From: Natrarchaeobius chitinivorans
GTDB lineage: Archaea; Halobacteriota; Halobacteria; Halobacteriales; Natrialbaceae
Reading direction: 5' to 3'
Length of the DNA: 64,000 bases
NCBI RefSeq assembly: GCF_003841505.1
Contig: NZ_REGA01000004.1
Span: 124,001 to 188,000 of the forward strand
Both the position numbers and the translations under genes were made by a program. Under the pieces are notes generated by a model. It saw nothing but the letters and a program-made list of their open reading frames with translations, had not been told where the DNA came from and did no database searches. Each line of letters starts with the position of its first letter. Position 1 is the stretch's first letter. Of the stretch, positions 3,558-26,551 are shown piece after piece.

Positions 3558-3818
3558 TTAGGGCCGCCAGATCGCGGTGACGACTTCGTCGTCCAGCTCG
3601 AGGCTCTCGTACGTGTACCCTCGGTCATCGAGTTTCGGAAAGAGGAACTGGGGGACGCGGTCGTTTCGCTGGAGCAACACCGCCTCGTCGGGGAGATCGA
3701 CGAGTTGCTCGAGCGTTCGTTTGAGCGGTTCCGGCGGGCCGAGCGAGCGGACGTCGAGCGTCGTTCGTGGTCGATCCGGCGGCGCATCCGTTCGGTCGAC
3801 GACGGCTGTATACTGCAT
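3558..3818 (-). CDS. DUF2249 (TusA-like) small protein 1
   Basis: An 86-residue protein with the DUF2249 core: TTLDVRSLGPPEPLKRTLEQL, then a hydrophobic strand, NDRVPQFLFPKLDDRGY and a closing strand ending VVTAIWRP. The fold resembles TusA sulfur carriers, but the family's role is not established. A GTG at 3842 would add eight residues. I prefer the ATG at 3818 because MQYTAVVDRTD is a normal beginning. It lies 86 bp downstream of a second DUF2249 gene on the same strand, and these genes commonly sit beside denitrification genes in haloarchaea. It may form an operon with the next two. Confidence 0.8.
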   Translation of the reverse strand: MQYTAVVDRTDAPPDRPRTTLDVRSLGPPEPLKRTLEQLVDLPDEAVLLQRNDRVPQFLFPKLDDRGYTYESLELDDEVVTAIWRP

Positions 3819-3904
3819 ACGTATTCGGTCGACCTCCGCCACCCTATCTCTCCTGCCGGACGTGTTCGTCCCCGAACTCGCTCACTCAGGAACCGAAACG
3901 CCAC

Positions 3905-4138
3905 CTAGGCTTCGACTTTCGGGAACCGCGCGACGAACTCCTCGGGTGCGACGCGTTCGACCTCGTAGCCGTCGGCGTCGAAGCTCTCGACTTCGGCCTG
4001 AAACTCGTAGAACAGTGGTTTGGGCTCGTGATCGTTGACGATCGTCAGCGTCTCGCCGGGCTCGAGGTCCTCGAACGTTTCGTGGATGGTCGGATGGCGG
4101 TTCACCGGTGGAATGTCTCGAACGTCGAGTCGTGTCAT
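3905..4138 (-). CDS. DUF2249 (TusA-like) small protein 2
   Basis: A 77-residue protein that is a single DUF2249 domain: TRLDVRDIPPVNRHPTIHE, a GETLTIVNDHEPKPLFYEF strand-helix unit typical of the family, and a C-terminal RFPKVEA. The conserved NDHEPKPL motif is complete. A palindrome (4179-4190) lies 41 bp upstream of the ATG, where an activator would act. With its two relatives at 3558 and 4238 it forms a cluster between nirK and a Bat-type regulator, which points to a role in nitrogen-oxide metabolism or metal/sulfur delivery to it. That role is inference. Confidence 0.88.
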   Translation of the reverse strand: MTRLDVRDIPPVNRHPTIHETFEDLEPGETLTIVNDHEPKPLFYEFQAEVESFDADGYEVERVAPEEFVARFPKVEA

Positions 4139-4178
4139 GCGAGTCTGAGTGGACGGCGAAGCGGGATCGGTGTTGGTA

Positions 4179-4190
4179 CGAATATGTTCG
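4179..4190. promoter_or_regulatory. Palindromic operator candidate before DUF2249 gene 2
   Basis: CGAATATGTTCG matches the nirK palindrome at 11 of 12 positions. It lies in the 99-bp gap upstream of the minus-strand gene starting at 4138, 41 bp from its ATG. Confidence 0.5.
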
Positions 4191-4237
4191 CCGGTCGGCG
4201 GTACAGATTTCGAATATTGGGTCGGTACGTCCCGCAG

Positions 4238-4483
4238 TCAGACCGATGCAGATCCCTCGTCGTGTACGATGTGGACGTACCAGACGCCGTCCCGGTTTTC
4301 GGCCTCGTGGCTGAACCCGCGCGCATCGAGCACCTCGTACAGCGGCGCCGGTTCGAACGGTGCGATCAGCCGCAGCCGTTCGTCGGTCTCGAGGTCCTCG
4401 AGCGCGGAGACGATGTCGTCGAATGGCGGGCCGTCGATTTTCCTGACGTCGAGCGTCTGGTCGGCGATGTCGGTTGCCATCAT
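4238..4483 (-). CDS. DUF2249 (TusA-like) small protein 3
   Basis: An 81-residue protein from an ATG-ATG pair at 4483/4480 (either may be used). The domain reads QTLDVRKIDGPPFDDIVSAL, then ERLRLIAPFEPAPLYEVL, then GVWYVHIVHD. It has the TusA-like layout, but the usual NDHEP turn is replaced by APFEP. It is divergent from the Bat-type regulator at 4676, and the shared space holds a perfect palindrome at 4621-4632. Function is unknown; co-regulation with nirK is suggested by that site. Confidence 0.85.
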   Translation of the reverse strand: MMATDIADQTLDVRKIDGPPFDDIVSALEDLETDERLRLIAPFEPAPLYEVLDARGFSHEAENRDGVWYVHIVHDEGSASV

Positions 4484-4620
4484 CGCTCTCTTCGGGCCAT
4501 CGCCGATTGGATGTTGGGCCGAATCAGTTCGGCCGTTCCACCTCGAGAGCGAAACCATCCCGCCTCGAGGGCGAACCCGTCCCGCTTCGAGAGAGGAATT
4601 CCCACGGCGTAGGAACCGGG

Positions 4621-4675: not shown

Positions 4676-5350
4676 ATGGCCCAGGCGACTCTCTCCGTGA
4701 CGATGCCCGAACAGGTCTGGATCCAGCAGGTGTCGGTGGCGTACCCCGAGGCCACGTTTCAGGTGCTGGCCGCGGTCCCCGGCTCCGAGTCGGGATTCGC
4801 ACTCGTCAGAATCACCGGTCCGGACGTTCCCGACGTGGTCGACGACGTCAACGACCACCCACAGATCACTGAACTCTCTCTCATCCAGTGGAGCGACAAC
4901 GAGGCGACGATCCACTTCGAGACGACGGCTCCCCTGCTGTTGTTCTCCTCTCGAGAGTCCGGAATGCCGATCGAACTCCCCGTCGAGATCCAGGACGGCG
5001 AGGCGACAGTCGACGTCACCGGCTCCCGCGAACGGCTCGCCGAACTCGCCGAACAGCTCGAGTTCTTCGGACTTCAGTATCGCATCGAAAACGTGAGCGA
5101 GCGACTACACGAGAGTCAGCTCCTCTCGGAACGCCAGCTCGAGGTCGTCGTCGCCGCCGTCGAGGAGGGGTACTACGACACGCCACGTCGGAGTTCGCTG
5201 ACCGAACTCGCCGATCACCTCGATATCGCGAAATCGACCTGCAGCGAGACGCTTCACCGCGCCGAAGAGGCGATCGTCAAGCGCTTCGTCGAGGATCTTC
5301 CGGGACTCGACGAAGACGAGCCGCTCGAGGAACAGCTCGCGGCGTACTGA
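4676..5350 (+). CDS. Bat-type (HTH_10) transcriptional regulator
   Basis: A 224-residue regulator of the bacterio-opsin-activator family. The first about 150 residues form an alpha/beta sensor domain. The C-terminus from about residue 150 is the HTH_10 domain: LLSERQLEVVVAAVEEGYYDTPRRSSLTE begins it and LADHLDIAKSTCSETLHRAEE forms the recognition part. Relatives include DmsR and NarO, which control anaerobic respiration genes. This one lacks the N-terminal cysteine cluster I would expect for an iron-sulfur NarO, since its only Cys is inside the HTH. A palindrome and TATA box directly upstream suggest autoregulation. Its place between nirK, the DUF2249 genes and psrBC makes it the likely regulator of all of them. 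Confidence 0.88.
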   Translation: MAQATLSVTMPEQVWIQQVSVAYPEATFQVLAAVPGSESGFALVRITGPDVPDVVDDVNDHPQITELSLIQWSDNEATIHFETTAPLLLFSSRESGMPIELPVEIQDGEATVDVTGSRERLAELAEQLEFFGLQYRIENVSERLHESQLLSERQLEVVVAAVEEGYYDTPRRSSLTELADHLDIAKSTCSETLHRAEEAIVKRFVEDLPGLDEDEPLEEQLAAY

Positions 5351-5383: not shown

Positions 5384-5395
5384 CGAACATGTTAC
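5384..5395. promoter_or_regulatory. Degenerate palindrome upstream of psrB
   Basis: CGAACATGTTAC keeps the left half and core of the nirK palindrome, with two changes in the right half. It is 34 bp after the regulator's stop and 154 bp before psrB. Confidence 0.35.
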
Positions 5396-5473: not shown

Positions 5474-5485
5474 TGAACGTATTCA
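5474..5485. promoter_or_regulatory. Palindrome candidate close to the psrB promoter
   Basis: TGAACGTATTCA fits the pattern YGAAY-NN-RTTCR and is followed at once by CAAGTAC, a weak TATA-like stretch. It lies 64 bp upstream of the psrB ATG. Confidence 0.4.
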
Positions 5486-5548
5486 AGTACCTGTCGCTGA
5501 GTATCCACTCTGTGAGAAAGACGGCATGTCAGGAGGTGTTCTAAGCGG

Positions 5549-7180
5549 ATGAGCGCGGACGACGAATCGTTCCATCCACTCGGCGGGGAGTGGGAAGACG
5601 AACTCGAGACCATGCTCGACGATACCGAGTACGATAGCGACCTCGGTATGGAGATGGCTAAAGACGCGATGCGCGTCACCAAAGGCGAACTGTCCGAAGC
5701 CGAATTCCACGAGATGTATCACGACGACGTGATGGAAGAATTCGGCGAGGACAACCGACCGACGGAAGAAGCCTACGAAGAGATGAAAGCCGCAGAGGAA
5801 GGCACGTTCTCCCGGATGCTCTCGAAGTTCGAGGGCGACGGCGAGGATAGCCGTCGCGGCGCGATGAAGAAGATGGGCGCCGGCGCGGCGGCCGTCGGTC
5901 TCGGTGCGTGGGGAACCGTCGACGACGGCGAACCCGAAGCGGCAGTCGCCGACACACAGCAGCAAGTCGACGAGCAAGACGGCACCCAGTGGGGGATGAC
6001 GATCGACCTCGAGCGGTGTGACGGGTGTCTAACTTGTGTGACTGCGTGTCAACAAGAGAACCAGACCGACCAGGGTGTCAACTGGATGTACGTCCTCGCG
6101 TTCGAGGACGACACCACCGCCGGCGGCAATCCGACACCTGACGTGCGAGGCGGTAACGACGATTTCAATTTTCTCGTCCGACCGTGTCAACACTGTACGG
6201 ACGCGCCCTGTGAGAAGGTCTGTCCGACGACGGCCCGCCACACTCGTGACAAGGACGGTCTCGTCCTGACGGATTACGACGTCTGTATCGGCTGTCGGTA
6301 CTGTCAGGTCGCCTGTCCGTACGGCGTCAACTACTTCCAGTGGGAAGAGCCCCAGGAAGCCACCGAAGCGGAAATCGCCGATCAGATGGGTGTCGAACCC
6401 GGCGAAGAAGGCGATCACATGACCGACGAGCGCGGTCGATGGGTCGACAGTCGCGCACCTCGCGGCGTCATGAGCAAGTGTACGTTCTGTCCGACTCGAC
6501 AGGACGGCCTGATGGGCGACGACCGCGTCGGAACGACGGCCTGCGAGGACGCCTGTCCACCGGACGCGATCCAGTTTGGCGACGTCAACGACGAACGCAG
6601 CGACGCGTACCAGCACGGCGAGTATCCGAGCAAGAGCCGAGCAATTATCGACATCGTCCGCAACATCCCGTCGCCGGATGCGATCGACAACCTTCTCAGC
6701 GAAGACGACGACCTCGAGTCCGCACTCGAGGCGTTCGATGAGGACGAAGACGACGACCTCGATCAGGAACTCGTCAGCATCATGAAGGCGATCGAGATCG
6801 TCAGCGGCGGGGAAGAGCCGGCCGAGGAGACGAACGACACCATCCTCGAGCAAGAACAGGCGGTCCTCGAATCCCTCGAGGCGCTCGAACAGTACGTCGA
6901 TCTCGAAAGCGAGGACGTACTCGCCGAGTTGCAACTCGGTGACGGCAGCGAAGACGACGCCAACCTTCGACTCCGTCAGTACGCCGGCATTGCCGGCTCG
7001 AAGTTCAAGCTGCTCGAGGACATCGGAACGAATCCGAACATCACGTACATCGGACAGAACCCCGGACCGAACGCCGAGCAGGTAGAAAGTTGGATCTCCT
7101 ACGAGGACGTCGGCCAGACGGACAACCGGAAAGAGATCCTCGACGAAGGAACCGTCGGTGACCCAGGGGTGTCGCTATGA
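5549..7180 (+). CDS. PsrB/DmsB-like ferredoxin subunit with four Fe-S clusters
   Basis: A 543-residue electron-transfer subunit of the complex iron-sulfur molybdoenzyme type. Four cysteine clusters are visible: C157-C167 (CDGCLTCVTAC), C213-C225, C246-C256 and C311/C314/C332/C336. This is the PsrB/DmsB set. About 150 residues precede the clusters and include SRRGAMKKMGAGAAAVG at 101-117, which looks like an internal twin-arginine or membrane-targeting segment. About 200 acidic residues follow, so the protein is roughly twice the usual length. It overlaps the NrfD-type membrane gene by four bases. No molybdopterin catalytic subunit is next to it. It should pass electrons between quinol and an unknown partner. 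Confidence 0.9.
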   Translation: MSADDESFHPLGGEWEDELETMLDDTEYDSDLGMEMAKDAMRVTKGELSEAEFHEMYHDDVMEEFGEDNRPTEEAYEEMKAAEEGTFSRMLSKFEGDGEDSRRGAMKKMGAGAAAVGLGAWGTVDDGEPEAAVADTQQQVDEQDGTQWGMTIDLERCDGCLTCVTACQQENQTDQGVNWMYVLAFEDDTTAGGNPTPDVRGGNDDFNFLVRPCQHCTDAPCEKVCPTTARHTRDKDGLVLTDYDVCIGCRYCQVACPYGVNYFQWEEPQEATEAEIADQMGVEPGEEGDHMTDERGRWVDSRAPRGVMSKCTFCPTRQDGLMGDDRVGTTACEDACPPDAIQFGDVNDERSDAYQHGEYPSKSRAIIDIVRNIPSPDAIDNLLSEDDDLESALEAFDEDEDDDLDQELVSIMKAIEIVSGGEEPAEETNDTILEQEQAVLESLEALEQYVDLESEDVLAELQLGDGSEDDANLRLRQYAGIAGSKFKLLEDIGTNPNITYIGQNPGPNAEQVESWISYEDVGQTDNRKEILDEGTVGDPGVSL

Positions 7181-8583
7181 GCACCAAGATGCCGACGGAG
7201 GAGGACATCCTCCGACCGACCGAAGGGTTCAGCAAGAAGTACTTCGCCCTGTTCGGCGTCTGTGCGCTCGCCCTCGGTGCGTTTCTGGTTGGGTGGATGT
7301 ACCAGCTCAGCCAGGGTCTGGTCGTCACCGGCCTCTCCGACTGGGGGAGCGGTGGCGGCGTGACGTGGGGGCTGTACATCGGCGCGTTCATCTGGTGGGT
7401 CGGAATCGCCCACGGCGGGATCATCCTCTCGGCGGCCGTCCGCCTGCTCGGCATGGAGCGGTACATGCCGGTCGCGCGTCTCGCGGAGATGTTGACGCTG
7501 GCTGGCCTCTCGGCCGCCGGCTTTTACATTCTCGTTCACATGGGCCGTCCAGACCGGATGGTCACGAGCGTCATCGGCCACTACCACATCACGGTGAACA
7601 ACTCGCCACTGGTGTGGGACGTCACCGTCATCACGGCCTACTTCGTGTTGACGGCGACCTACCTCGGGCTGACGCTTCGCTACGACGTCTCGCGACTGCG
7701 CGATCAGCTCCCATCGTATGCCCCTCAACTCGGAAGCGTACAGCTTCCGGACCTCTACGGAAAGATCTACGACGGGTTGACCCTCGGATACACGGAGAAA
7801 GAAGACGAGATCATCGAGCGGATGGTCTGGTGGCTCGCCCTCGCGATCATCATCATGGCCCCGCTGTTGCTCCACGGCGGTGTGATTCCGTGGCTGTTCG
7901 CCGTCCTGCCGAACTACCCGAGTTGGTTCGGTGCGATCCAGGGTCCGCAGTTCCTGACGATCGCACTGACGTCGGCGATCAGCGGCGTTATTCTGGTTTC
8001 CTACGCCTTCCGTCGCGCCTACGACTGGGATCACATCATCACCGACGACATCTTCCGCGGCCTCTTGTTGTGGCTCGGATTCTTCTGTCTGCTGTTCCTC
8101 TGGCTCCAGCTTCAGCAGCTCACCGCAGGGAGCTTCGCACCGACCGTCGACCACGCGACTGCGACCGACTCGAAGTTCTCGCACCCGATGTATGTCGTTC
8201 CGATGCTGATGGTCGTCGGCGTTCTCGGGTTCATCTTCGCGACGGTACTTCGCCCATCGCTGTTTAGCAAGAAACGGGCGATCGTCGCCGGCGTGCTCGT
8301 CCTGATCGCGACGCTCGTCGAGAAGACCTACTTCGTCCTCTCGGGCTTCTGGTACCCGACGTTCAGCATCTACGAGGCGACGCCGGGTGATTACTTCCCG
8401 AGCGCGATCGAGCTCCTCTCGCTGGTCGGAACCATCGGGATGGTGGTGTTGTTCTTCCTCGTCATCTCGAAGCTGGTTCCGGTCGTCGAACTCCACGCGG
8501 TCGAACACCTGCGTGGCGATCACGACCACGGCGAACACGAGTCCGCGAGTGAATCCGCTGGCGAACCGGAGGTGGAAGCATGA
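7177..8583 (+). CDS. NrfD/PsrC-type membrane quinol-interacting subunit
   Basis: A 468-residue polytopic protein of the NrfD/PsrC family. It oxidises or reduces quinol in the membrane and trades electrons with the PsrB-like partner encoded just upstream (four-base overlap). Many hydrophobic spans are evident, for example ALFGVCALALGAFLVGWMY near 25, WGLYIGAFIWWVGIAHGGII near 65, and a long C-terminal series up to VVLFFLVISKLVPVVELHAV. The charged tail ends in GEHESASESAGEPEVEA. Between spans, a loop near 175-215 is longer than in compact relatives. The ATG of the next gene overlaps its stop. It is likely the membrane anchor of an electron-transfer module expressed with nirK. Confidence 0.9.
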   Translation: MSTKMPTEEDILRPTEGFSKKYFALFGVCALALGAFLVGWMYQLSQGLVVTGLSDWGSGGGVTWGLYIGAFIWWVGIAHGGIILSAAVRLLGMERYMPVARLAEMLTLAGLSAAGFYILVHMGRPDRMVTSVIGHYHITVNNSPLVWDVTVITAYFVLTATYLGLTLRYDVSRLRDQLPSYAPQLGSVQLPDLYGKIYDGLTLGYTEKEDEIIERMVWWLALAIIIMAPLLLHGGVIPWLFAVLPNYPSWFGAIQGPQFLTIALTSAISGVILVSYAFRRAYDWDHIITDDIFRGLLLWLGFFCLLFLWLQLQQLTAGSFAPTVDHATATDSKFSHPMYVVPMLMVVGVLGFIFATVLRPSLFSKKRAIVAGVLVLIATLVEKTYFVLSGFWYPTFSIYEATPGDYFPSAIELLSLVGTIGMVVLFFLVISKLVPVVELHAVEHLRGDHDHGEHESASESAGEPEVEA

Positions 8584-8897
8584 TCGCCCCCGCGACGCTC
8601 GCGAGTGCGTTCTCGTGGATCCTCTATCACGGCTACGAGGGAACCGAAGGGTTGACCGGCTTCCCGAACATCGGCACCTACCTCATCTTCGGTGTCATCC
8701 TGGTACCGGTCTACGTCATGGTAATCGCGTGGTTCGTCGGCGAACCGCGAGACTCCAAGACCGGCCTGATGGGCGTCGGCTACCTCGTCGGGATCACGGC
8801 CCAGATGTGGATCGGGATGTTCATCCTGACGATGATCATCGGCGTCGTCTTCTACGGCGGCCTTCCCGAACCGCTTGGATCCGTCGGACCGCCGTAA
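8580..8897 (+). CDS. Small membrane protein A of the psrBC operon
   Basis: A 105-residue protein with about three hydrophobic spans: a short N-terminal one, LIFGVILVPVYVMVIAWFVG in the middle, and MWIGMFILTMIIGVVFYGG near the end. A hydrophilic loop GEPRDSKTGLMGVGY lies between the last two. It overlaps the NrfD-type gene by four bases, so it belongs to the same operon and probably to the same complex. It is about 75 percent identical over most of its length to the protein at 9031, so the pair is a tandem duplication. I do not recognise the family; a third membrane subunit or assembly factor is likely. Confidence 0.82.
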   Translation: MIAPATLASAFSWILYHGYEGTEGLTGFPNIGTYLIFGVILVPVYVMVIAWFVGEPRDSKTGLMGVGYLVGITAQMWIGMFILTMIIGVVFYGGLPEPLGSVGPP

Positions 8898-8924
8898 CCC
8901 GATCGATCGAGTTTCCCGATCCGC

Positions 8925-8929
8925 TTTTT
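8925..8929 (+). terminator. T-tract after small membrane protein A
   Basis: A run of five T follows the stop at 8897 by 27 bases, as in archaeal oligo-T termination. It may be partial, since the paralogue continues 100 bp downstream. Confidence 0.35.
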
Positions 8930-9030
8930 CGTCCGATTCGTTGGAGTCTACCGTTCGAAGAGTCGTGTCGGTGCCCTGCGAGTGCAGGCAGTATCACCAC
9001 CCTCCTCGGAGGTGTCACGAACGTAGACGA

Positions 9031-9333
9031 ATGATTTCGACGTCCACGCTCGCATACATCCTGTATCACGGCTACGAAGCCACCGAGGGAGTGACCGGGT
9101 TTCCGAACACCGGGAGCTGGCTCATCTTCGGCGTCGTTCTCCTTCCGATCTACGTCATGGTCGTCGCGTGGTTCGTCGGCACCCCTCGGGATACGAAAAC
9201 CGGGTTGTTGGGCGTCGGTTACCTCGTCGGAATCACGGCCCAGATGTGGATCGGGATGTTCATCATGACGCTGATCGTCGGCCTCATCTTCTTCGGTCGG
9301 CTGCCCGAACCCATCGGCTCGCCCGGACTGTGA
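9031..9333 (+). CDS. Small membrane protein B, tandem paralogue of A
   Basis: A 100-residue protein nearly parallel to its neighbour at 8580: LAYILYHGYEATEGVTGFPN, then LIFGVVLLPIYVMVVAWFVG, then GTPRDTKTGLLGVGYLVGITA, and a last span ending in FFGRLPEPIGSPGL. The ATG at 9031 gives the same N-terminus as the paralogue; longer starts would read into the 133-bp spacer. Unlike the first copy it does not overlap the preceding gene. Both copies keep the same charged loop, which suggests both are functional. The second may have its own promoter or alternate with the first. Confidence 0.82.
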   Translation: MISTSTLAYILYHGYEATEGVTGFPNTGSWLIFGVVLLPIYVMVVAWFVGTPRDTKTGLLGVGYLVGITAQMWIGMFIMTLIVGLIFFGRLPEPIGSPGL

Positions 9334-9527: not shown

Positions 9528-10619
9528 ATGAGTATTACAGAACACGAACTCAAGATCGAACTCGAGGGGATCGAGGACCCGGACATCGGCGAGGACATCG
9601 TTTCGCTCGGACTCGTCAACGACGTCACCATCGACGACGAGACCGCCCGAATCTCACTCGCGTTCAACACGCCGTATGCACCCTCCGAGATGGAGATCGG
9701 CAACCGGATTCGCGAGGTCTGTGACGACGCCGGCCTCGAGGCTGACCTGCGCGCACACACCGGCCCGGAACACGGATTCGACGACGAGGTCCTCCCGCGG
9801 GTACGAAACGTGATCGCCGTCGCCTCGGGGAAAGGTGGCGTCGGCAAGACGACCGTCGCCGCCAACCTGGCCGCCGGCCTCGAGAAACGCGGCGCGATGG
9901 TCGGCATCCTCGACGCCGACATCCACGGCCCCAACGTTCCCCGAATTCTCCCGATCGAAAGCGAGCCCGGCGTCACGCCCAACGAGGACATCGTGCCGCC
10001 ACGTTCCGACGGCGTTCGCGTCATCAGCATGGGCTTCATGATGGAAGAAGAAGACGATCCCGCGATCCTCCGCGGTCCGATGGTCAACAAGTTCATGCTG
10101 AAGTTCCTCGAGGGAGTCGAGTGGGGCCGCCTCGACTACCTCATCGTCGACCTGCCGCCGGGAACCGGCGACGCCACGTTGAACCTGCTGCAGTCGATGC
10201 CGGTCACGGGATCGGTCGTCGTCACGACGCCCCAGGAGATGGCCCTCGACGACACCAGCAAGGGGATCCAGATGTTCAACAAGCACAACACGCCCGTCTT
10301 GGGCGTCGTCGAGAACATGAGCTCGTTCATCTGCCCGAGCTGTGGCGACGAACACGGCCTGTTCGGTACCGAAGGCGCGGATGGAATCGTCGGCAAGTAC
10401 GACGTCCCGCTGCTCGGACGGATTCCGATCCACCCGGACTTCGGCGCGGACGGCAGCGAGGGTGCGATCGTCAAAAACGACGAGAGCGACGTCCAGGACC
10501 CCATCGAGGACCTCGTCGCCGAAATCTCCAACCGCGTCGGCGAGATCAACCGTCGCACCGTCGACGAGAACACCTCCGATACGCCCGACGACGCGCTCCC
10601 GACCGAACTCGAGGACTGA
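9528..10619 (+). CDS. Mrp/NBP35-family iron-sulfur carrier ATPase
   Basis: A 363-residue cytosolic P-loop ATPase that carries and delivers Fe-S clusters to target proteins. An N-terminal MIP18-like (DUF59) domain covers residues 1-80. The deviant Walker A ASGKGGVGKTT lies at 99-109, DADIHGPN near 130, and IVDLPPGTGD near 210. The cluster-binding pair CPSC is near 268 (SSFICPSCGDE). All expected residues are present and the length is normal for archaeal Mrp with a DUF59 domain. It follows psrBC by about 190 bp on the same strand. It could help mature the four-cluster PsrB protein, but Mrp is also a general housekeeping factor. Confidence 0.95.
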   Translation: MSITEHELKIELEGIEDPDIGEDIVSLGLVNDVTIDDETARISLAFNTPYAPSEMEIGNRIREVCDDAGLEADLRAHTGPEHGFDDEVLPRVRNVIAVASGKGGVGKTTVAANLAAGLEKRGAMVGILDADIHGPNVPRILPIESEPGVTPNEDIVPPRSDGVRVISMGFMMEEEDDPAILRGPMVNKFMLKFLEGVEWGRLDYLIVDLPPGTGDATLNLLQSMPVTGSVVVTTPQEMALDDTSKGIQMFNKHNTPVLGVVENMSSFICPSCGDEHGLFGTEGADGIVGKYDVPLLGRIPIHPDFGADGSEGAIVKNDESDVQDPIEDLVAEISNRVGEINRRTVDENTSDTPDDALPTELED

Positions 10620-25923: not shown

Positions 25924-26397
25924 TTACTCGACCTGGATTTCGCCGACCATCGTCGTCTCGTGGGGGTCACAGACGTACTCGGCCATCTCGCTGCTGGCTT
26001 CGAACTCGAGGATCTGGTCGTCGCCCGGGTCGTCGACCTCGTCCGTCTGGAGGTCGTCGACGACGTCGCCGCCGTCGTCGCGGATCTCGATGTTGTGCAG
26101 CGAGCCGTCGCCTTCGGTCCAGCCGATGGTGTACGATTCACCCTCCTCGAGGACGAGCGTCGGGTTCTGTTCACCTTCGATCTCCGAGGGCTCGAGGCCC
26201 TCCCAGCCGGCGGTCTGGCCGTCGAACCGGATGTCCGTGCCGGGTTCGATCGCGGCTTCGCCGTTGCCGTTGCCGTCGTCGTCGCCGTTACCGTTGCCGT
26301 TGCCGTTGTCGTCGTTACATCCTGCAACGACTGCTGTTCCAGCCGTCGCGACCGCTCCCTTCAGGAACGTTCGACGGTTCGTGGTGAATCTGGTCAT
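25924..26397 (-). CDS. Halocyanin-type blue copper lipoprotein
   Basis: A 157-residue small electron carrier. The N-terminus MTRFTTNRRTFLKGAVATAG ends in the lipobox AVVAGC, so it is exported by the Tat route and lipid-anchored. A low-complexity Asn/Gly/Asp linker follows, then a plastocyanin-type domain. Type 1 copper ligands are His in HNIEI near 103 and Cys, His and Met in VCDPHETTMVG near 141-151. A start 44 residues upstream would place non-signal sequence first and is rejected. A donor to NirK or to a terminal oxidase is possible by family, but nirK is 24 kb away. Confidence 0.92.
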   Translation of the reverse strand: MTRFTTNRRTFLKGAVATAGTAVVAGCNDDNGNGNGNGDDDGNGNGEAAIEPGTDIRFDGQTAGWEGLEPSEIEGEQNPTLVLEEGESYTIGWTEGDGSLHNIEIRDDGGDVVDDLQTDEVDDPGDDQILEFEASSEMAEYVCDPHETTMVGEIQVE

Positions 26398-26551
26398 ATA
26401 ACTCACCGTGATATTACGGGAGGAAACCATTGAACACCCCGTCGATTCCCACTCTCTGGGACGGGGACGAACACGTTCGTTGAAAGTCGAGGTCGAGAAG
26501 GGTCGGTCGTCGTTCGAGTCGACGGCCACCGGTGATAGACGACGACCGCGA

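Follow-up and report, generated by a model that had tools for sequence, protein, structure and literature searches.

Bacterial alternative complex III (ACIII, ActABCDEF), known from R. marinus, F. johnsoniae and Chloroflexus/Roseiflexus, is found where cytochrome bc1 is missing and feeds the blue-copper protein auracyanin and a high-potential iron-sulfur protein (HiPIP) (PMC8552683). Among haloarchaea, Natrialba magadii, Haloterrigena turkmenica and Natronomonas pharaonis possess halocyanins and terminal oxidases but lack cytochrome bc1, and their path from quinol to halocyanin was left open (PMC3403918, 2012); a 2021 review counts about one third of haloarchaea as lacking complex III and likewise leaves the electron path open (PMC8305020), and a 2018 paper describes natronoarchaea without complex III and without its alternative homologues (PMC6176080). 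Here we analyze a 64,000-nucleotide (nt) stretch of Natrarchaeobius chitinivorans (assembly GCF_003841505.1, contig NZ_REGA01000004.1, positions 124,001 to 188,000; hereafter the window, in whose numbering coordinates are given), which carries a gene module centered on a four-cluster Fe-S protein, PsrB, and an NrfD-type membrane protein, PsrC. We consider it probable, at roughly 0.8, that the module encodes a minimal ACIII-like menaquinol:halocyanin oxidoreductase, without haem, molybdenum (Mo) or catalytic subunit, that stands in for complex III. It is thus a specific candidate for the quinol-to-halocyanin enzyme that has been published as missing since 2012. We found no earlier proposal of this role in the open-access literature, subscription papers and preprints being outside the scope of that search.

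The module begins with psrB (5549-7180, + strand, 543 residues; open reading frame (ORF) and domain searches), which overlaps psrC/nrfD (7177-8583, +, 468 residues; Pfam NrfD 3e-22) by 4 nt. An overlap of the same size joins psrC to the first of two tandem genes for small membrane proteins, A (8580-8897, +, 105 residues, from the translation and span prediction) and its paralogue B (9031-9333, +, 100 residues, span prediction), which are 72% identical to each other and gave no significant family match in either Pfam or NCBIfam. An earlier note, made from the DNA letters of this stretch, had recognized the overlapping pair and the two downstream paralogues of about 100 residues; its estimate of about three spans for each of them has to be revised, as two are predicted in 101 of 101 copies. 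The extent of 5549-9333 that it gave to the module covers four real genes and leaves out a fifth conserved member, apbC/Mrp (9528-10619, +; PF10609 1e-89), which codes for a NUBPL-type P-loop Fe-S carrier. This protein probably supplies PsrB with its clusters ahead of export.

Gene order was read at 40 haloarchaeal loci around matches to the small protein and at named loci with psrB, the named loci being the best 80 matches and nearly all from Natrialbaceae. The order psrB-psrC-small-apbC is seen in nearly all of the 40 loci and in the named ones, and its recurrence across about nine haloarchaeal families, with the small genes accompanying psrBC, is more than chance. Counts over 88 module loci (apbC at 83; one small gene at 69 and two at 19; nirK, for copper nitrite reductase, near 24) identify apbC as a member of the unit, and nirK and the tandem duplication as local features. 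The small pair noted earlier is therefore present here as a lineage-specific arrangement, and nirK was rejected as an obligate partner. In a phylum-wide search, only weak PsrC matches were recovered outside Halobacteria, the best at 2e-35 over part of the length, and no module is claimed there.

The distribution of the module closely follows the absence of complex III. We used PF00032 (the cytochrome b of bc1/b6f) as the proxy for complex III, and E<1e-100 as the threshold for a module-type PsrC, across 292 genomes of the class. PF00032 is absent from 70 of the 292, and the module is present in 68 of these 70, as against 29 of the 222 genomes that bear PF00032. The two bc-less genomes without the module (G007 and G093, of 2.1-2.2 Mb) have no haem-copper oxidase (PF00115). 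The raw Fisher test over the 292 genomes gives p = 2e-40, a value that overstates independence because the genomes are related and most of the bc-less ones come from one family. At the genus level, outside the family of the window and with the two oxidase-less genera left out, the module occurs in 5/5 bc-less genera against 8/47 others (p=5e-4); within the family of the window it is found in 16/16 bc-less genera. The source genome encodes five COX1 proteins, five subunit II proteins whose CuA motif is intact, along with NosZ, NirK and halocyanins, and PF00032 was not found in it. Given these electron consumers and carriers, it needs an enzyme that takes electrons from quinol to halocyanin. No cytochrome b or Rieske gene lies in the module; no genome-wide search for a Rieske protein was made.

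The membrane subunit shows the clearest kinship with ACIII. A profile built from 22 diverse PsrC sequences and searched against the PDB retrieved the ActC chains of the four ACIII enzymes of solved structure (E 6e-29 to 2e-27) and had no other match up to E=10. The predicted structure of PsrC (mean predicted local distance difference test score, pLDDT, 70) consists of about ten long helices, and a Foldseek search with it placed the four ActC chains on top, with template modeling (TM) scores of 0.75-0.80, followed by ActF. The PsrC of Thermus was not among the top 50 matches, and we rejected a Thermus-type identity, since both profile and fold point to ACIII subunits, ActC first. Of the quinol-site residues listed for R. 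marinus ActC (PMC8076601, PMC5928083), His139, Ser164 and Asp169 correspond to H121, S143 and D148 of PsrC, all three invariant, while Glu394/Arg395 of the ion path listed in the same papers correspond to E382/K383. PsrC thus conforms to an ActC-type NrfD subunit with an outer-side quinol site, three of whose four residues are invariant, and on this basis it probably oxidizes quinol. A second, solo psrC that is 75% identical occurs on contig C17 of the source genome (L003, 8551-9894) without psrB or a small gene, adjoining a protein resembling rubredoxin reductase that binds flavin adenine dinucleotide (FAD). Solo copies of this kind are present in many Natrialbaceae, and the one on C17 may represent a second membrane subunit comparable to ActF.

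PsrB, at 543 residues, is about twice as long as the PsrB proteins of its Mo-linked sister group (about 270-290 residues), in agreement with the earlier estimate. What it has over them is an N-terminal Ferredoxin_N domain (PF16947; residues 9-73), a twin-arginine translocation (Tat) segment with the twin arginine at R102-R103, and a C-terminal extension, a helical insert at about 357-480 lying beyond the cluster domain (about 148-354). The 16 cluster cysteines are all present in the window protein and form four full [4Fe-4S] motifs, and the nearest solved relatives are the ArrB-like chain 6cz7_B and the C-terminal half of ActB. The Tat position conforms to RRxx[ML] in 87/87 PsrB proteins, reading SRRGAMK in the window, with R102-R103 invariant and an apolar stretch following, as is typical of Tat-exported Fe-S proteins. 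If the Fe-S domain is exported folded by Tat, and given the ActC-like orientation, the clusters would face outward; the motif sits about 100 residues in and would serve both export and anchoring. As judged from the sequence, the four clusters should therefore share the outer face of the membrane with halocyanin, NirK and the CuA domains. A solo 459-residue Ferredoxin_N/PsrB paralogue is encoded on contig C16 (L008, 7746-9125), with one cluster cysteine lost (KCTFC to KCIFD), upstream of a 290-residue membrane protein without a family match.

Gene linkage points to the electron acceptor. The gene immediately preceding psrB, in the same orientation, encodes a halocyanin in at least nine genomes from two families: in Natronosalvus (L055/L185, 58 nt), at L056, in Natronobiforma (L057/L228, 65 nt), at L064 (41 nt), in Natronoglomus (L233) and Halovivax (L235), and at L076, L259 and L260, which are all three genomes of one genus of family f3. 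These halocyanins score above the NCBIfam cut-off (TIGR03102) in 9/9 cases. In Halostagnicola sp. A-GB9-2 the place of halocyanin upstream of psrB is taken by a gene for a HiPIP-like lipoprotein (L053, 4245-4667; L226, 5724-6146). In the window, a candidate acceptor is a Tat-lipoprotein cupredoxin (Copper-bind; 25924-26529, - strand, the true start being likely near 26397).

We propose a complex of the ActC-type PsrC, the outward four-cluster PsrB and either one or two of the small two-span proteins, with ApbC as its dedicated Fe-S loader. The quinol pocket on the outer side of PsrC (H121/S143/D148) would oxidize menaquinol, and the electrons would travel through the four [4Fe-4S] clusters of PsrB before passing one by one to halocyanin, a blue-copper protein anchored in the membrane; halocyanin would in turn feed the CuA-type haem-copper oxidases and, at low oxygen, also NirK and NosZ. 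The module would in this way replace bc1/b6f in haloarchaea that lack it. The earlier note had envisaged quinol electrons reaching NirK, halocyanin or a similar external acceptor, a suggestion that the ActC-type PsrC, the Tat signal of PsrB, the halocyanin linkage and the bc-less profile now support; it did not mention kinship with ACIII, apbC or a replacement of complex III. As to the wider proposition, that this is a general haloarchaeal substitute for complex III, a menaquinol:halocyanin oxidoreductase free of haem and Mo, that it descends from a molybdoenzyme complex, having lost the catalytic subunit and gained a copper carrier as a parallel to bacterial ACIII, and that it moves protons via its ActC-type subunit, we hold it to be somewhat more probable than its negation.

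The neighborhood in the window could instead suggest a line dedicated to denitrification, in which the module would feed just NirK and NosZ through a copper carrier at low oxygen without serving as a general complex III. nirK (1180-2325, -; TIGR02376, 360 bits), three DUF2249 genes and the denitrification motif described below are clustered here and in relatives, and nirK also flanks the module at locus L065. However, nirK is near the module at just 24 of the 88 loci, and the presence of the module in 68 of the 70 bc-less genomes goes far beyond the nirK-linked loci. Aerobic electron flow to the CuA oxidases would also be left unexplained, and the two bc-less genomes without the module are the ones that lack haem-copper oxidases. 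We therefore regard a denitrification-only role as unlikely and the weight that had earlier been placed on the nirK link as overstated: the nirK product is likely one of the final recipients of the electrons and lies outside the core. We give still less credence to the notion that the module is a membrane redox protein conserved among haloarchaea for some other role, whose anticorrelation with complex III is inherited clade history. Most bc-less genomes do come from one family; but at least five lineages follow the rule (the family of the window, two genera of f3, f10 and f11), among the bc-less genera only the two that have no haem-copper oxidase depart from it, and the halocyanin operon linkage is independent evidence. 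This makes mere clade history highly improbable.

Classical PsrBC and DmsBC pairs serve a catalytic subunit, and the module might accordingly be the membrane anchor for a molybdoenzyme encoded elsewhere that docks on PsrB. A PsrC sister clade does have such an enzyme in its operons: in four genomes (L251-L254) a PhsA/PsrA-like molybdoenzyme with a Tat signal is encoded together with a PsrB of 268-287 residues, PsrC and a small protein. That clade is separate from the module clade with 100/99 support, and the clusters of the module clade itself carry no molybdoenzyme. No molybdopterin gene is present in the interior of the module at the loci read, and none adjoins it in the window, as had been noted before. 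The sole PF00384 protein of the source genome (711 residues, on another contig, with no adjacent psrBC) is NasA/formate-dehydrogenase-like and has no Tat signal. A check of 40 genomes turned up five that carry the module (G043, G020, G204, G243 and G218) and have no PF00384 protein of any kind, which contradicts the anchor for those five; a catalytic subunit simply lost was rejected as the general case on the same grounds. An anchoring role thus appears quite improbable. Three of the four sister operons also have ApbC and an HdrA2-like protein of 700 residues. The sharing of PsrB, PsrC, the small protein and ApbC with these Mo-linked operons suggests that the module was derived from a molybdoenzyme complex through loss of its catalytic subunit, if the direction of change is read correctly. 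The halocyanin and HiPIP linked to the module normally have higher potentials than menaquinone, and bc-less aerobic genomes need an outward flow of electrons, both of which speak against the reverse direction, from an outer donor to menaquinone. QrcCD, the same kind of Fe-S/NrfD pair, does reduce menaquinone (PMC13059093), and a QrcCD-like quinone reductase is the precedent for this reversal, which we think has very little chance of being correct.

Several observations weigh against a menaquinol:halocyanin oxidoreductase replacing complex III. PF00032 is no more than a stand-in for complex III. The two occur together, module and PF00032, in 29 genomes, including four of the nine halocyanin-linked ones, so the module is not only a replacement; and a divergent module occurs in one genome (G129) that has no PF00115 oxidase. 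Complex III may also be bypassed by quinol oxidases, cytochrome bd lying outside the search. At the level of the proteins, the fourth quinol-site residue, Asp253 of ActC, is replaced by a conserved Leu240 in PsrC, and the PsrB model (mean pLDDT 50, with the helices of the C-terminal insert as its confident part) is too poor for fold comparison and was not used for a fold search. In the window no halocyanin gene adjoins the module, and nothing encoded with the module corresponds to ActA, ActE, ActF or the N-terminal half of ActB. Finally, the promoter motif suggests low-oxygen control, yet a sole complex III would be needed in air as well.

This motif belongs to the haloarchaeal denitrification/low-oxygen family CGAAYATDKTYG (PMC11218638). 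An exact copy, CGAACATGTTCG (0 mismatches), lies upstream of nirK at 2349-2360, so that the earlier remark on nirK and its motif stands. The palindrome CGAACATGTTAC (5384-5395, +), a degenerate copy with 2 mismatches, precedes the psrB start by 165 nt. A match upstream of psrB occurs in 63/90 module loci, as against 9% of random pieces, mostly at about 165 nt before the start, and the alignment shows its position to be kept in most Natrialbaceae loci. In the psrB promoter it is followed by a conserved GGAAATC and then a TATA-like stretch. A further copy, CGAACACGTTCG (1 mismatch), is present at 26468-26479, about 70 nt upstream of the likely start of the cupredoxin. An HTH_10/BAT-type regulator gene (4676-5350, +) is kept upstream of the module in Natrialbaceae and is near it at 58/88 loci. 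The three DUF2249 genes (3558-4489, -) lie between nirK and this regulator; the motif recurs there at 4179 and 4621. A 23-codon leader ORF (MNVFKYLSLSIHSVRKTACQEVF; 5474-5545, +) has its stop 3 nt ahead of the psrB start. Across 19 Natrialbaceae its ATG is invariant, its length is mostly 21-26 codons, its sequence is poorly conserved and its stop usually lies no more than a few nt from the psrB ATG; translational coupling or regulation of psrB by this ORF is possible.

Compared with known systems, the module comes closest to bacterial ACIII, with which it shares a 10-helix ActC-type NrfD subunit with most of the quinol site, an outer Fe-S unit of four clusters, resembling the C-terminal half of ActB, and a small two-span subunit, ActD having two spans too, a likeness so far of span count. 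Its phylogenetic profile and gene linkage would also fit the ACIII role of replacing bc1 and passing electrons to a small carrier, blue copper or HiPIP. The module differs in being archaeal and in adding ApbC and Ferredoxin_N. Only the Fe-S half of ActB aligns with its PsrB, which has no Mo-less catalytic-like N-terminal half, and the four full [4Fe-4S] motifs of PsrB contrast with the one [3Fe-4S] among the four clusters of ActB. No gene for a multihaem ActA or a monohaem ActE was seen inside the module in any locus read, nor a second NrfD gene in the cluster, the solo paralogue on C17 being apart from it. If the proposed role is true, ACIII extends to archaea, two main subunits suffice without haem, and the candidate role can be tested in cultivable strains. 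With complex iron-sulfur molybdoenzymes such as PsrABC, PhsABC and TtrABC, and with the Mo-linked sister operon of haloarchaea, the module has in common the Fe-S and NrfD subunits in one operon, and with the sister operon also the small protein and, in three of four cases, ApbC; unlike all of these it has no molybdopterin catalytic subunit, and PsrB itself bears the extra N-terminal domain and a Tat signal. QrcABCD, the menaquinone reductase of sulfate reducers, has a comparable Fe-S/NrfD pair (PsrB against QrcC gives 116 bits, below the cut-off of 400), but the module lacks the QrcA cytochrome and QrcB and likely works in the opposite direction. The proteins of cytochrome bc1/b6f (PetABC), found in other haloarchaea, are unrelated to those of the module, in which there is no cytochrome b or Rieske protein and no Q cycle is expected; yet the proposed reaction, menaquinol to halocyanin, and the position in the chain would be the same.

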